Below, in pieces: positions 21,731-27,014 of a DNA stretch of 64,000 bases (within the stretch, counting starts at the first letter, position 1; the number at the start of each line of letters is the position of its first letter). The position numbers and the translations under genes are program-made. This stretch comes from Cyanobacterium sp. HL-69 (GTDB lineage: Bacteria; Cyanobacteriota; Cyanobacteriia; Cyanobacteriales; Cyanobacteriaceae). Location of the stretch: the NCBI GenBank assembly GCA_002813895.1, contig CP024912.1:186001-250000 (forward strand), read 5' to 3'. The notes under the pieces were generated by a model. That model did not search any database. It worked only from the letters and a program-made list of their open reading frames with translations, and was not told where the DNA came from.

Positions 21731-23767
21731 TTACCTCCATCCATCCCAGTCTTCATTAAAAATGGACGTATTAGGAAAAGCCGTGGGATTACCATTACTA
21801 TCCAATATCGTTTTTAGTGTTTGTAAATGGGGGTTACGGAAAGCAAAACCTTCGGTAAACTCATAGGGCAAAATATTTTTATCCAAAGCCATGGCGGCCG
21901 TAGTACCTGCCGCTGCCCCCGATGACCATTCAAAAGAATGTACTCGATAAGCCGCTGCCGCAATGTGACTGGTGGCAATACTTTTTCCAGCGACAATCAT
22001 ATTGTCTATTTTTTGGGGAATCATGGCAGAAAGGGGCATTTGAAAGGGATAAGCCTGTCCTTGACCCCTTCTTTCTCCTTCTCTTTCGGTATTACCCGGT
22101 TTTTCGTGGGGGCTTTCACTCATACAGGGGTGAAAATCAATGGCATAATGTCCAATCCCCACTGAATCGGCGTAAATGGTGGAACGGCTCCTTTTGGGGG
22201 CTTGATCAGGGGAAATTTCACCGCTAATAACTCCAAAACCTTCTAATCCTGCCAAAATTGCCCTTAATTGACGATATTCTTGGGGTGTAAGGGTTTCTTT
22301 GTAATAATCATCGTCATAGTTTACCCGGGAAATATCCACTTCATTGACGGTAAAACCATCGGGGTGGGCATAGTTGGGGCGACCAATAATTCTTCTTCCT
22401 TCTCTAATGTAGGGATACTTGGAAAGTCCGTGGGCTGTCCCCATGGGGGAATCGAATCCTGTGAGAAAAATATGATCAGGGTGAGGTTTTTTAACCCCAT
22501 CTCCCAGTTGAGAATCTGTTGTACCTGCCACCAACCAATGGTAAAAACCGATCGCATTTTGTTCGCCTTTCGAGAGGGTTTCGGTGCGTAAGCCCCCCAT
22601 CCAGCCGTGGGGTTGTAGTTGTCCCATCGCCTCTAGTTGCTCTCTGCTATAAATCAGGTTATCTACGGATGTGCCTGGGCGGTAGTCGTTACCCCAAGTC
22701 CAGTTTTGCATGGCAATATCCCCAGGGGTAGGGGTGGTGAAGCCAATGCCCCCAAAGGTTACTCTCTCGCTGGGTTGAGCCTTGTAGATACGACGGTAGG
22801 TAAAGACGAGGTCAAAATCCGCTAGTCTTTCTAATTCGTAGCTGTAATAGGGAGCATATTGTTGATAAAATTCTGGCTCTGGTTGCGGTTGGGGGGTTTC
22901 GGTTTTTTCCATGGCGAAGGTATAGGTAAAACCTTGGGTACAGTAGGGATCAGGTGTTCTACTGGATGAGGATGGTTCGTAGGCAGAAAGAGGATCTATA
23001 CCAAGACGATAGGGGATGTCGGTTAAACCGATGATTTCCCCTGTTTCTGTGGCTTCTATGACCATCCAATGGGCTTTTGCTTCTAAATTGTCGTTTTGGG
23101 GAGGAACAAATTTAATGACCGTTTTCTTCAGCCTGGAGGAATCTTCGTAGGTGTAGGCATCCTCGATAATTTGGGAAAGGGGTTCGCTATTGAGGGGAGG
23201 GGTGTTGGGTTGTGGTTTATGGCTAATGGCGATCGCACTTACTATCTGTTCCCCTGTGCCACCATTTTCTACCCTTTCTATCTGCACATCCTTAATAACA
23301 GTATTGGGAAACCATTTGAGAGTACCATTTCCCTTTCTAGCAGCATCTTGCAATTGACGCTCAAGAATATAATCCGCATCCTTGGGCAAAAAACAAGAAG
23401 CACTTACCCAACACTCTCCTAAATTTAACTTGCCATAAAAATCACCAATACGATCTCGAAATTCTAAATAACCCTTGGGAAAAAATAACTCCTGTCTTTG
23501 GGTGCTACGCTCATCTAAAGCCGATGTACCTTGGGAAGAAATTTGACCCCCTACCCAGTCGGTAATCTCTGTTAAACACACAGTTTTACCCATCAATAAC
23601 GCTTCATAGGCTGCCCCTGCCCCCGCCAATCCTCCGCCGATAACGAGGATGTCACATTCTTCTATTTGTTCAGGATTTCGAGGGAAGTTATTCATTGCGA
23701 TCGCAGGAATGGTAAAAAAGAGGACTAAAGGGATTGAGAGTATTTTTTGCCAAGGTTTACGCTTCAT
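21731..23767 (-). CDS. Exported FAD-dependent oxidoreductase
   Basis: 678-residue flavoprotein of the FAD-dependent oxidoreductase group. A Sec-type signal peptide (KILSIPLVLFFTIPAIAM) is followed by the dinucleotide motif DILVIGGGLAGAGAA (39-53) and GGQISSQGTSALDE. The C-terminal FAD-binding part has DNMIVAGKSIATSHIAAAAYR. It has no twin-arginine motif, which is odd for an exported flavoprotein, because these usually fold before Tat export. The substrate is unknown. It is an isolated gene flanked by AT-rich intergenic DNA. Confidence 0.82.
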   Translation of the reverse strand: MKRKPWQKILSIPLVLFFTIPAIAMNNFPRNPEQIEECDILVIGGGLAGAGAAYEALLMGKTVCLTEITDWVGGQISSQGTSALDERSTQRQELFFPKGYLEFRDRIGDFYGKLNLGECWVSASCFLPKDADYILERQLQDAARKGNGTLKWFPNTVIKDVQIERVENGGTGEQIVSAIAISHKPQPNTPPLNSEPLSQIIEDAYTYEDSSRLKKTVIKFVPPQNDNLEAKAHWMVIEATETGEIIGLTDIPYRLGIDPLSAYEPSSSSRTPDPYCTQGFTYTFAMEKTETPQPQPEPEFYQQYAPYYSYELERLADFDLVFTYRRIYKAQPSERVTFGGIGFTTPTPGDIAMQNWTWGNDYRPGTSVDNLIYSREQLEAMGQLQPHGWMGGLRTETLSKGEQNAIGFYHWLVAGTTDSQLGDGVKKPHPDHIFLTGFDSPMGTAHGLSKYPYIREGRRIIGRPNYAHPDGFTVNEVDISRVNYDDDYYKETLTPQEYRQLRAILAGLEGFGVISGEISPDQAPKRSRSTIYADSVGIGHYAIDFHPCMSESPHEKPGNTEREGERRGQGQAYPFQMPLSAMIPQKIDNMIVAGKSIATSHIAAAAYRVHSFEWSSGAAAGTTAAMALDKNILPYEFTEGFAFRNPHLQTLKTILDSNGNPTAFPNTSIFNEDWDGWR

Positions 23768-23982: not shown

Positions 23983-26199
23983 ATGAAACCATCCATTACA
24001 CCCAGAAAATTTCGCTCTGAACACATCAATCAGGCTTCTAATGTCAATTTAGAAGAGATAATGACCATCGCATCTCAACAGCGCCCCTGTGTATTTGGAA
24101 TTACCATCGATGACGCTACCACCGTTGACAGAGACGATGCTATTTGGATGATTGAGTTGGATAATGGACAGTTTGAGTTACAAGTAAGTATTACGGATGT
24201 TGGTGCTTTAATTACCAAAGATTCTCCCATTGACAAAGAAGCCTTAAAAAGGGTGGTGACGCTATATCATACCAAGCCCCCTACCCCCATGTTACCCATT
24301 AATATTAGTACCAATTTAGGTTCATTAGAAGAAGACGAAGAAAGATTAGCTATTACATTTTTTTTTACTATTGATAATAAAGGAAATATAGTTAGCTTTG
24401 AGATAAAAGAAACTATTTTCAAAAATTTACGAGCTTTTAGTTACGAAGAAGTAGAAAATATTTTAAAAAACCCTTCCCAAGAAAATCATGATGGACTATT
24501 AGTTAAAATCCAAACTATTGCTCAAATATTAGCTAGTAAAAGAAAAGGAAAATCAGGTATTTTAACTAAAGATGGTTACATTGATGAAGATGGCAATCTC
24601 ATCGCAGATAATGTTAATACCCATCAATTAATTGCCGAGGTAATGATTTTAACTAACACTACCATTGCTAATTTGTTGGCACAACAAAAAATCCCTGCTC
24701 TTTTTCGTACTCAGGATGTGGGTATTAAGGATTTAAACAAAGCTATCAAGGAAATGGGGCATTGTTTAGTACCTGCTATTTATAGCCCTTGCCCTTTACA
24801 ACACGTTGGTTTAGCCCTAGACACCTATTCCCATTTTACTAGCCCTCTTAGACGTTTTGTCGATTTAGTAAATCATCGCATTATTAAAGCAATTATTAGG
24901 GGTGTTTCTTCTCCTTATCATCGAGATGAATTGCAAGATATTGCTGACTATATTAATGATTTTCATTGTCAGTATAAAGAAGATAAATCTCATCATCTAA
25001 GAATGAGGAGAAAAGAAGATATTGCTAAAAAGTATAATCAGATTAGTGGTAATGAAATTAAAGAATTATCTACTGAAGATTTTTCAGAATTATTAGAATA
25101 TTTTGCTTATAGAAATCGCTTACCAGAAATTTTAGGGCATATCAAAGAGAGAGTTAATGATTTATCTTTAAAAGATTTTTATTTTATTTGGTTTGTCGCC
25201 AAAATAAATGATTTATTTTATTTAGAAAATATTGACGGAATATCGATACTGTTAATAGCTTCTCAAATTGAAAATATAACCGTTGACTATGACATTAAAT
25301 ATAACCGTAAAAATAAAACTTATCAGGCAAAATGTTCTTTAAATGGTTTAACTACCCCTGATTTTGCGGAAAATGTCAAAAAAATGGTAGCAAAACAAAC
25401 CTCGGCAGTTATGGCTATTCGGGGTTATGTTACTCATGGGTTGGTGAAAAAAGGTAACTCTGATGTTTCCGATGATTCTTCTTCTCAAGATATTAATAAC
25501 AACACTATCAAAGAGGAAAATTTTTCTGCTTTGTTACATCAAGCCATAGAGGAAAATTCCTTAACCGATGATTTTTTGAAGGAAGTGGAAAAGAGAATTG
25601 ATTCTTTACAACCAAAAGACTTTTATAAGTTATGGTTTTTGGCTAGGGTAAATGGTTTTTTTGAGCCATCCATTGACGCTGTATCAGTGTTGCTCGTGCG
25701 ATCGCAATTAGATCATGTAGAGGTAAAATATGTCATAGAAAGTTATCCTAATAATAGTGGCTATATTAGCCTTTGTTATGTAGATAGTTTTACTACCCCA
25801 CAACCTGCCTTTAGTCAAAAAAAGAGTAAAGCCAAACAACAATCAGCCCTAGAATATATTAAGGCTTTTTTGAATGATGAATTAACCAAAAATCCCACGG
25901 TAATTACTTCGGAAGAAAATAGTCCCATAAATCCTCCCATAATTCCCATATCCGCTGATACCAAAACAACAGAAGAAACCAATTATGTCTCCTTAATCCA
26001 TGATTTCTGTCAAATTAATCAGATAGATTACCCCGAATATAAATATTTAAAAATAGATAGCTTTTTTCAGTGTTTTATTAGTCTTTATTATCAGGATAAA
26101 ATGATTCAATCCGTGGGCTATGGAAGAAGTAAAAAAGATGCCAAACAATGTGCTTCCCATATCATGGTTATTCAGCACCATCTCGATATTACTGTTTAA
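23983..26199 (+). CDS. RNase II/R-type (RNB) exoribonuclease with three C-terminal dsRBD-like modules
   Basis: The RNB catalytic domain (about 35-310) keeps the four metal-binding aspartates with exact RNase II spacing: D43, D49, D51 and D52 in TIDDATTVDRDDAIW. It also keeps Y95 with PMLP, and YSHFTSPLRRFVDL (272-285). It lacks the N-terminal cold-shock domains and has no C-terminal S1 domain. Instead there are two tandem ~115-residue modules (about 362-478 and 512-622), each with KDFY, a SILL/SVLL helix, strands and a Lys-rich KxxAKQxSA helix. A final dsRBD-like domain follows (666-734, GYGRSKKDAKQCASHIM). The likely role is RNA decay or processing on structured RNA. Confidence 0.85.
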   Translation: MKPSITPRKFRSEHINQASNVNLEEIMTIASQQRPCVFGITIDDATTVDRDDAIWMIELDNGQFELQVSITDVGALITKDSPIDKEALKRVVTLYHTKPPTPMLPINISTNLGSLEEDEERLAITFFFTIDNKGNIVSFEIKETIFKNLRAFSYEEVENILKNPSQENHDGLLVKIQTIAQILASKRKGKSGILTKDGYIDEDGNLIADNVNTHQLIAEVMILTNTTIANLLAQQKIPALFRTQDVGIKDLNKAIKEMGHCLVPAIYSPCPLQHVGLALDTYSHFTSPLRRFVDLVNHRIIKAIIRGVSSPYHRDELQDIADYINDFHCQYKEDKSHHLRMRRKEDIAKKYNQISGNEIKELSTEDFSELLEYFAYRNRLPEILGHIKERVNDLSLKDFYFIWFVAKINDLFYLENIDGISILLIASQIENITVDYDIKYNRKNKTYQAKCSLNGLTTPDFAENVKKMVAKQTSAVMAIRGYVTHGLVKKGNSDVSDDSSSQDINNNTIKEENFSALLHQAIEENSLTDDFLKEVEKRIDSLQPKDFYKLWFLARVNGFFEPSIDAVSVLLVRSQLDHVEVKYVIESYPNNSGYISLCYVDSFTTPQPAFSQKKSKAKQQSALEYIKAFLNDELTKNPTVITSEENSPINPPIIPISADTKTTEETNYVSLIHDFCQINQIDYPEYKYLKIDSFFQCFISLYYQDKMIQSVGYGRSKKDAKQCASHIMVIQHHLDITV

Positions 26200-26249: not shown

Positions 26250-27014
26250 ATGCAATTAACTTGGTTTGATAGTAATTCATGGTTAATCGAGATTGCGGAT
26301 AAAAGAATTTTACTAGATCCTTGGTTCGTGGGATCTTTGACTTTTGGTAATTTGGACTGGTTATTTGAAGGCAAAAAACGTAACCCTCAGCCTATCCCTG
26401 AGAATATAGATTTTATTTTACTCTCCCAAGGGTTAGAAGATCATGCCCACCCTCCTACTTTAAAGGAATTAGATCATAGTATTCCTGTGATTGGTTCGGA
26501 AAATGCGGGTAAGGTTTGTAAAGAATTTGGCTATGAAAAAATTACGACCCTCCGCCATGGGGAGAGTTATGTTATCGATGACAAAATCGAAATCAAGGCG
26601 GTAAAAGGCTCTCCTGTGGGCCCTACTTTGGTGGAAAATGGCTATATTGTCAAGGATTTAACGAACGGTGATTCCCTTTATTATGAGCCCCACGGCTTCC
26701 ACAGTCAAAATCTGCAAACAGAGGACCGTATCAAAGCCATTATCACCCCTTTAACCAATGTCAAGATACCCTTGATTGGCCCTGTAATTAAAGGGCAAAA
26801 AAGTGCCTTAGAAGTTTGTCAGTGGCTCAAACCTGAATATATTTTACCCACGGCGGCAGGGGGAGATATTGAGTTTAAGGGATTTTTAATCAATTTACTT
26901 AAGGAAGAGGGTAGTTTAGATAGTTTTCGCTCGATGTTGAAGGAGGCAAATTTATCTACTCAAGTGATTGAGCCAAAGCCCTATGAGGCGGTAAGTTTTG
27001 CTGTCAATGTTTAG
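26250..27014 (+). CDS. MBL-fold protein with degenerate metal site
   Basis: Metallo-beta-lactamase-fold protein of 254 residues, related to UlaG-like hydrolases. The usual HxHxDH motif reads Q60-G-L62-E-D64-H65, so the first two histidines are lost while Asp and the last His remain. H67 follows. Other fold features are kept (LLDPWF, YYEPHGFH, LPTAAGG). Activity is therefore uncertain; it may bind one metal or use another site. Its stop overlaps the convergent rluD-family gene by 4 bp. Confidence 0.75.
   Translation: MQLTWFDSNSWLIEIADKRILLDPWFVGSLTFGNLDWLFEGKKRNPQPIPENIDFILLSQGLEDHAHPPTLKELDHSIPVIGSENAGKVCKEFGYEKITTLRHGESYVIDDKIEIKAVKGSPVGPTLVENGYIVKDLTNGDSLYYEPHGFHSQNLQTEDRIKAIITPLTNVKIPLIGPVIKGQKSALEVCQWLKPEYILPTAAGGDIEFKGFLINLLKEEGSLDSFRSMLKEANLSTQVIEPKPYEAVSFAVNV

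Follow-up and report, generated by a model that had tools for sequence, protein, structure and literature searches.

What becomes of an RNB exoribonuclease when its usual cold-shock and S1 domains are missing and double-stranded RNA-binding domains (dsRBDs) stand in their place? This question is raised by a gene in a 64,000-nucleotide stretch of the genome of Cyanobacterium sp. HL-69 (contig CP024912.1, positions 186,001 to 250,000; hereafter the window), which we analyzed by computation. The gene is an open reading frame (ORF) at 23983-26199 (+) of the window that encodes, without interruption, a protein of 738 amino acids (aa), here called P0001. The source genome has three RNB genes (P0001, L001, and L002), and P0001 is the third RNB protein, built differently from the other two. 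It joins an intact RNB active site to a dsRBD tail according to structural models, and it belongs to a separate clade of RNB proteins.

P0001 has an intact active site and no detectable cold-shock or S1 domain

The RNB domain of P0001 (Pfam PF00773) scored 212.5 bits against a cut-off of 29.3 (E 1.2e-62), and the best match of the catalytic part among solved structures, by sequence, was RNase R 8cdu (E 2.3e-33). At the other end of the protein, residues 668-728 matched the dsRBD family dsrm (PF00035) with 27.6 bits against a cut-off of 23, and this last domain weakly matched R2D2 among solved structures (E 0.0015). Pfam found no S1 or cold-shock domain in P0001 at a limit of E 10, where HMMER drops most matches above about 0.1. 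The remaining matches, to DUF1514 and TssG, were both sub-threshold and chance-like.

We aligned P0001 with 51 relatives that carry a TSPxR[RK] motif and have at least 500 aa (alignment A5). These were drawn from 53 of 80 genome loci (L081-L124, L126-L130, L133-L135, and L143), among which L115 and L117 had no ORF meeting the motif and length criteria. We excluded the other loci (L125, L131, L132, L136-L142, and L144-L160), which we took to be of the ordinary RNase R type and in which hidden Markov models (HMMs) of the tail found no tail. D43, D49, D51, D52, Y95, E219, and R290 were identical in 52/52 proteins; their roles are presumably those of the corresponding residues of RNase II.

We also estimated ratios of nonsynonymous to synonymous substitution (dN/dS, Nei-Gojobori) for P0001 versus two genus relatives, L006 and L007. 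The ratio was 0.09-0.11 for the RNB domain, 0.18-0.21 and 0.19-0.34 for the first and second modules of the tail (A and B, described below), and 0.14 for the last dsRBD. The two linkers gave 0.52-1.06. We omitted the comparisons in which dS was saturated, namely that of the last dsRBD with L007 and that of the second linker with L006. The folded parts of P0001 are under purifying selection. These data bear on whether P0001 binds RNA as a regulator without being catalytic, in the manner of yeast Ssd1 or of the degenerate Zam of cyanobacteria. Precedents exist, in that the RNase activity of Ssd1 is reported to be lost (PMC12320835) and the active site of Zam proteins is reported to be extremely degenerate (PMC9145284). 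However, the invariance of the four aspartates, Y95, E219, and R290, together with an RNB dN/dS of about 0.1, makes such a role very improbable for P0001.

The tail is modeled as three dsRBD folds, two of them in duplicated modules

Two segments of the tail, module A (residues 362-486) and module B (residues 509-634), share 35.8% identity over 123 columns (79.3 bits, E 3.7e-25), whereas the best of 200 shuffled controls reached 21.6 bits. A profile comparison of module A with module B gave a probability of 100%, and each copy matched the single module of other relatives at 99.4%. In a quick module tree, modules A and B of six proteins grouped together against 44 single modules (support of 100 in the Shimodaira-Hasegawa-like approximate likelihood ratio test, SH-aLRT), which assigns the duplication to the ancestry of Cyanobacteriaceae.

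An AlphaFold2 model of the whole of P0001 (52 rows) had a mean predicted local distance difference test score (pLDDT) of 88.8 and a predicted template modeling score (pTM) of 0.62; the modest pTM leaves the mutual placement of the domains unsure. The model runs from the RNB core through a helix at residues 314-351 to two consecutive units, each made of a three-helix unit and a helix-strand-strand-strand-helix (alpha-beta-beta-beta-alpha) domain, and then through a low-confidence linker to a third such domain. These domains lie at residues 419-483, 566-630, and 668-731. A separate model of modules A and B only (39 rows, pLDDT 92.8) had the same topology. In a Foldseek search with the whole model, ranks 1-44 were RNB-family chains (E 6.4e-10 or better), and ranks 45-50 were tandem-dsRBD chains of TARBP2, MLE, TRBP, and R2D2 (E 6.2e-6 to 5.9e-4), led by TARBP2 7zpk (6.2e-6) and MLE 5ztm (2.3e-5). 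With the A+B model, dsRBD proteins were at the top, and one of 321 matches reached E <= 0.001 (8dg7, 2.6e-4).

VIA-align comparisons are consistent with these assignments. We did not use rows below Z 8. By the tool's own guidance, scores of Z 7-8 are common for models that lack a clear match. Module B matched Loqs-PB 8dgi with Z 9.8 (root-mean-square deviation [rmsd] 2.5, 83 residues aligned) and RNase III 1yyk with Z 8.3 (rmsd 2.2, 69 aligned). The dsRBD of module A matched RDE-4 2lts with Z 8.0 (rmsd 2.3, 72 aligned), which is borderline taken alone, and the assignment of module A therefore rests also on its topology in both models and on its homology to module B. In these models the tail of P0001 is three dsRBD folds, of which the first two are each preceded by a three-helix subdomain.

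Ordinary RNB proteins, the paralogue L001 included, have cold-shock and S1 domains, and divergent forms of these could in principle be mistaken for dsRBDs. Against this, the model contains the helix-strand-strand-strand-helix topology three times with no OB-like (oligonucleotide/oligosaccharide-binding) strand run seen in the tail, the fold matches are to dsRBDs, and Pfam dsrm is above its cut-off. We consider this explanation ruled out by the model and the fold searches, with next to no probability left to it. The architecture thus agrees in most respects with an initial annotation made from the sequence, which had described intact catalytic aspartates and an intact arginine motif, the loss of the cold-shock and S1 domains, an internal duplication in tandem, and a third dsRBD-like domain at the C terminus; structure prediction and fold searches brought up neither other folds nor divergent cold-shock or S1 domains. 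Its description of the modules, as about 115 residues of dsRBD-like sequence, needs refinement: each holds a dsRBD fold, but the rest is the three-helix subdomain, and the modules are not dsRBD throughout.

RNB proteins with dsRBDs form a clade of their own

We built a tree of the RNB domain only (residues 36-306) with 30 outside sequences: 13 RNase R, four cyanobacterial RNase II, four Zam, and nine tail-less viral RNB proteins. One branch separated the 55 dsRBD-type rows from the 30 others (bootstrap 99, SH-aLRT 92); SH-aLRT was 100 without Zam and RNase II and 96 in a first quick tree. Four of the 55 clade rows (L122, L246, L302, and L304) had no tail match in the same ORF by the tail HMMs, but Pfam dsrm is present in L246 and in the ORF following that of L304. 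Hence, dsRBD-type RNB proteins form one clade that excludes RNase R, Zam, and the RNase II of cyanobacteria, although long branches make the position of this clade relative to RNase II uncertain.

Comparison with known systems draws the same line. RNase R (TIGR02063) resembles P0001 in its RNB domain and catalytic residues and provides the best solved-structure match by both sequence and fold. In contrast, P0001 scored 188.7 bits against an NCBIfam equivalog cut-off of 597.85, the two cold-shock domains and the S1 domain of RNase R were not found in it, the full tri-helix wedge is missing, and RNase R rows fall outside the dsRBD-type clade. Against RNase II (TIGR02062), P0001 scored 108.4 bits, below the equivalog cut-off of 641.9. 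The cyanobacterial RNase II of the same genome (L002) shares the RNB domain, and in the first tree its type lay closest to the clade among the outside groups, though on long branches; unlike P0001, it has CSD_RNase_II (a barrel like that of cold-shock domains, CSDs), winged-helix, and double helix-turn-helix domains before RNB and has no dsrm. L001, which we name Zam-type from its domains and degenerate motif, shares the RNB domain and the genome, but carries OB_RNB, CSD2, and S1, whereas P0001 has no CSD or S1 found, has an intact active site, and lies outside the Zam branch. Bacterial RNase III is likewise a ribonuclease with a C-terminal dsRBD, and it matches module B as given above. It is, however, an endonuclease with a catalytic domain unrelated to RNB. 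RNase II of Deinococcus radiodurans and RNase R of Haloferax volcanii are described as lacking the classical CSD/S1 set, with rudimentary or minimal accessory domains (PMC12320835). As described there, these have no dsRBDs; P0001 has three.

Our literature text searches, whose coverage of subscription papers is limited, did not find the RNB-dsRBD architecture in print. A 2025 review of RNB enzymes has no such member in its section 4, and "dsRBD" occurs 0 times in its main text (PMC12320835). The branch is apparently undescribed: its parts are known, but these searches turned up no publication on a monophyletic prokaryotic branch that combines them. The initial annotation held that a nuclease loading on double-stranded or folded RNA would be unusual in bacteria; P0001 is a member of a wider clade and not a single oddity.

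The architecture is present in all Cyanobacteriaceae genomes searched and scattered elsewhere

The initial annotation had named a search across cyanobacteria as a check, and we ran it at several levels. The two-module gene was present in 15/15 Cyanobacteriaceae genomes searched, covering 5/5 genera. In a sample of the order, 13/148 genomes matched the full-length profile at E <= 1e-60, namely nine Cyanobacteriaceae and G010, G022, G093, and G133. Of 386 genomes of the phylum, 11 had a strong match: six Cyanobacteriaceae and G010, G133, G249, G395 (fragments), and G339. This count combines two scans, as the one that scored at most three candidates per genome missed G249 and G395. In the first phylum scan, 116/386 genomes matched at E <= 1e-4 and 10 reached at least 219 bits; the rest were weak and nearly all confined to the dsRBD part. 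The gene is sparse in the phylum outside Cyanobacteriaceae.

Beyond the phylum, we scanned a collection of 84,980 species, which yielded 315 relatives. The best 80 were retained, and the spread found is therefore a lower bound. An RNB ORF with a tail or dsRBD match was present at 52/80 loci, a count that is partly circular because the tail HMMs were built from alignments A3 and A5; Pfam is the independent check. These loci include Crocosphaera, Stenomitos, Leptolyngbya, Acaryochloris, Glycomyces, Methanosarcina, Ignavibacteria, and Prolixibacteraceae, and some labels of metagenome-assembled genomes may reflect contamination. Relatives with a single module are found in cyanobacteria outside the family, in Glycomyces and Methanosarcina, on plasmids, and on five viral contigs. 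Pfam dsrm was found in 51/52 aligned proteins at E <= 1, and S1 and cold-shock domains were absent among 25 of the 46 Pfam families that the 52 proteins matched. Within the genus Glycomyces the gene was present in 22/22 genomes searched, and one Glycomyces genome examined had no further RNB match. In Methanosarcina, 11/30 genomes had one RNB match each, counted irrespective of the tail; ten of the matches lie in frames of 596-624 aa, and the eleventh is partial. Two further observations concern individual loci: one family member (G137:C74:7759-10017) has one TAA within the matched stretch, and a separate 153-aa ORF with a dsRBD like the terminal one of the family (L107:6209-6667) lies about 2.6 kb from an RNB-dsRBD gene.

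P0001 probably acts on duplex or folded RNA

We consider it probable that P0001 is a 3'-5' exoribonuclease whose dsRBDs recruit it to RNA that is folded or in duplex form. It would be a catalytically active, metal-dependent, 3'-to-5' hydrolytic RNB enzyme in which the C-terminal dsRBD tail replaces the cold-shock/S1 clamp. The tail would dock the enzyme on partly double-stranded RNA, such as structured transcripts, sense-antisense duplexes, or RNase III products, and a free 3' end near the docking site would then enter the RNB tunnel and be digested. The outcome would be trimming beside the duplex or weak unwinding, which we prefer to action as a second RNase R. We infer here the activity of P0001, its polarity, its binding of RNA, and the choice between unwinding and mere 3'-end trimming. 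P0001 is a concrete case of a third RNB gene whose tail would suit structured RNA.

Classical dsRBDs contact RNA through a GPxH loop (region 2) and a basic stretch (region 3). The region 3 motif is KKDAK in the terminal dsRBD of P0001 and KKMVAK and KKSKAK in modules A and B, where it is one residue longer than the classical form. In the terminal dsRBD, K717 and K721 are each conserved in 49/52 rows and A724 in 50/52, and a strict KKxAK-like motif is present in 36/52. The loop reads GPDH in two viral members (L247 and L249), and four Glycomyces rows have a GPxH loop. Judged by sequence, the conserved terminal lysines and the classical-looking viral and Glycomyces dsRBDs speak for recruitment to RNA.

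Several observations weigh against such recruitment. The GPxH loop is absent from P0001, and a GPxH-like pattern occurs in the last dsRBD of 9/52 rows, of which that of L103, a cyanobacterium, looks like chance. The net charges of the three dsRBDs of P0001 are +2, -2, and 0, modules A and B are unscored by Pfam dsrm, and several of the top fold matches are protein-binding dsRBDs. The catalytic domain is a further difficulty. The tunnel of Dis3L2 admits only single-stranded RNA and is reached once the CSDs swing away, and its tri-helix and linker (P612-M669) split the duplex; their deletion hampers degradation of double-stranded RNA and spares that of single-stranded RNA (PMC10023572). P0001 has no barrier of CSDs. 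At the tri-helix place it has 16 residues (246-261), versus 56 in RNase R 8cdu (477-532), and its model has one helix there (251-257). Residue 680 of human Dis3L2, just past the tri-helix, aligns with residue 266 of P0001, and the missing segment therefore falls at the Dis3L2 tri-helix. Between fixed anchors the segment has 22 residues in six family rows versus 33-46 in the other 46 rows. The alignment with Deinococcus 2r7d has no large gap in this segment (93 versus 97 residues); the Deinococcus protein, being short likewise and RNase II-like according to PMC12320835, points to RNase II-like rather than RNase R-like behavior of P0001. With the segment reduced, processive unwinding is no more likely than trimming to the duplex edge or slow unwinding.

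Some of these points suit another reading, in which the dsRBD folds are mainly protein-protein or dimerization platforms (type-B) and the enzyme is single-strand-specific and RNase II-like, being targeted by a partner or by self-association. The top matches of module B include Loqs-PB/Dicer-1, TRBP/Dicer or RPAP3, Staufen dsRBD5/Miranda, and the ADAR1 dsRBD3 dimer (Z 8.8-9.8), which fits with the near-zero charge of the dsRBDs, the missing dsrm score of modules A and B, and a tri-helix segment as short as that of 2r7d. However, RNA-bound dsRBDs score within about 1.5 Z units of these matches (1di2, 8.4; RNase III 1yyk, 8.3), so the fold comparison does not decide between RNA and protein binding. 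The outer lysines of the terminal KKxAK motif, kept as described above, and the lack of a dedicated partner gene in the clustering of neighbors described below also tell against it. We regard protein-binding platforms as possible, though on the unlikely side, and retain docking on RNA as our working model for P0001.

Plasmids and viral contigs carry the architecture

Nine Acaryochloris plasmids (H1-H9; L241-L244 and L290-L294) had one RNB-dsRBD match in each record. The stretches around these matches include recA in 5/9 regions and a RecD-like helicase in 4/9. In Rhodococcus, 37 plasmid records matched a plasmid member at E <= 1e-20, and on two of its plasmids (L245:4965-8621 and L296:3501-7155) parA and parB directly follow the RNB-dsRBD gene. 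On a Frondihabitans plasmid (L304:3303-5182), the dsRBD is an ORF of its own directly after the RNB ORF. Pfam dsrm was above its cut-off in 7/7 plasmid and viral proteins scanned, one being this kind of separate ORF.

Viral contigs, so labeled by the collection, encode the architecture at 5/43 loci, on contigs of 115-437 kb. Most RNB proteins of viral contigs lack the tail: tail HMMs were positive at 3/80 and 5/43 RNB loci of such contigs, the three being among the five contigs. A tblastn search of a phage collection with the viral member L161 matched 38 records, none covering 80% of the query, and the 25 matches listed are confined to query residues 21-328, the RNB part. As a separate observation, the viral contigs L161-L240 and L252-L289 hold many RNB proteins without a dsRBD tail, and 7/9 of those in the tree form one branch (SH-aLRT 91).

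The plasmid records and the viral loci suggest that this may be chiefly a gene of mobile elements. On plasmids and in viruses it would protect replication or the control of copy number by degrading silencing or antisense RNA, and copies on chromosomes, such as that of P0001, would have been domesticated. ParA and ParB would fit this picture: they are directly downstream in 2/21 plasmid regions read and elsewhere in the stretch in two more (one ParAB, one ParA). However, 17/21 plasmid regions (3.5-5 kb flanks) have no ParA or ParB annotation, a PADLOC search for defense systems gave no match for 3/3 proteins, and the gene is present in every Cyanobacteriaceae and Glycomyces genome searched. We therefore think it unlikely that the gene belongs mainly to mobile elements. 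ParAB as a partner was promising in the two Rhodococcus plasmids, yet we rejected it given direct adjacency in 2/21 plasmid regions.

Clustering of neighbors at 57 loci (the window and 56 others, flanks of 1.5-5 kb) yielded no dedicated partner: beyond close relatives there were only loose groups of seven, five, and four loci, whose products read, by sequence, as putative sensory, UvrA-like, and kinase proteins. With no shared neighbor family of weight and the PADLOC result empty, we rejected an operon partner or a defense system.

Docking of P0001 on RNA could be extended to the clade as a whole, which we do with considerable doubt, the short segment of Deinococcus 2r7d making it less likely. 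On this extension, the separate prokaryotic RNB branch would be a duplex-directed 3'-5' exoribonuclease, placed by dsRBDs on sense-antisense or folded RNA, with its tunnel fed by a route that splits duplexes without the classical tri-helix. If so, the branch would (i) provide part of the cyanobacteria with an activity like that of RNase R; (ii) constitute the sole RNB enzyme in some archaea and actinobacteria; and (iii) recur on large plasmids and in some viruses as a means to clear antisense RNA. The branch ties an enzyme of RNA decay to the genomes of plasmids and viruses and may serve as a natural experiment in duplex handling without OB clamps and with a reduced wedge.

Features of the gene and its neighbors

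The coordinates of the features are collected in Table 1.

Table 1. Features of the P0001 gene in window coordinates
Feature	Position	Strand	Evidence or detail
Whole gene, RNB exoribonuclease with C-terminal dsRBDs	23983..26199	+	738 aa; single match per genome, 15/15 family genomes, E <= 1e-150
RNB catalytic domain, residues 36-306	24088..24900	+	Pfam RNB E 1.2e-62; Foldseek best match RNase R 8cdu, E 1.7e-22
Catalytic aspartates D43, D49, D51, D52	24109..24138	+	Identical in 52/52 rows
Shortened segment, residues 243-264, where RNase R and Dis3L2 have the tri-helix wedge	24709..24774	+	Alignments
R290-R291 of the TSPLRR motif	24850..24855	+	Identical in 52/52 rows
Long helix, residues 314-351, linking catalytic domain to tail	24922..25035	+	AlphaFold2 model
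Module A three-helix subdomain, residues 362-410	25066..25212	+	Models
Module A dsRBD fold (predicted), residues 412-485	25216..25437	+	Models; RDE-4 dsRBD 2lts Z 8.0; homology to module B
Module B three-helix subdomain, residues 509-557	25507..25653	+	Models
Module B dsRBD fold (predicted), residues 560-633	25660..25881	+	Models; Loqs-PB 8dgi Z 9.8; RNase III 1yyk Z 8.3
C-terminal dsRBD, residues 665-733, KKxAK motif at 717-721	25975..26181	+	Pfam dsrm; K717 and K721 each in 49/52 rows

Two genes flank the nuclease in the window, both named from sequence. The divergent one (21731-23767, -) encodes a protein like flavin adenine dinucleotide (FAD)-dependent oxidoreductases and also lies next to the nuclease in both L006 and L007. 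A gene for a metallo-beta-lactamase (MBL)-fold-like protein (26250-27014, +) begins 50 bases downstream of the nuclease and is kept in L006.

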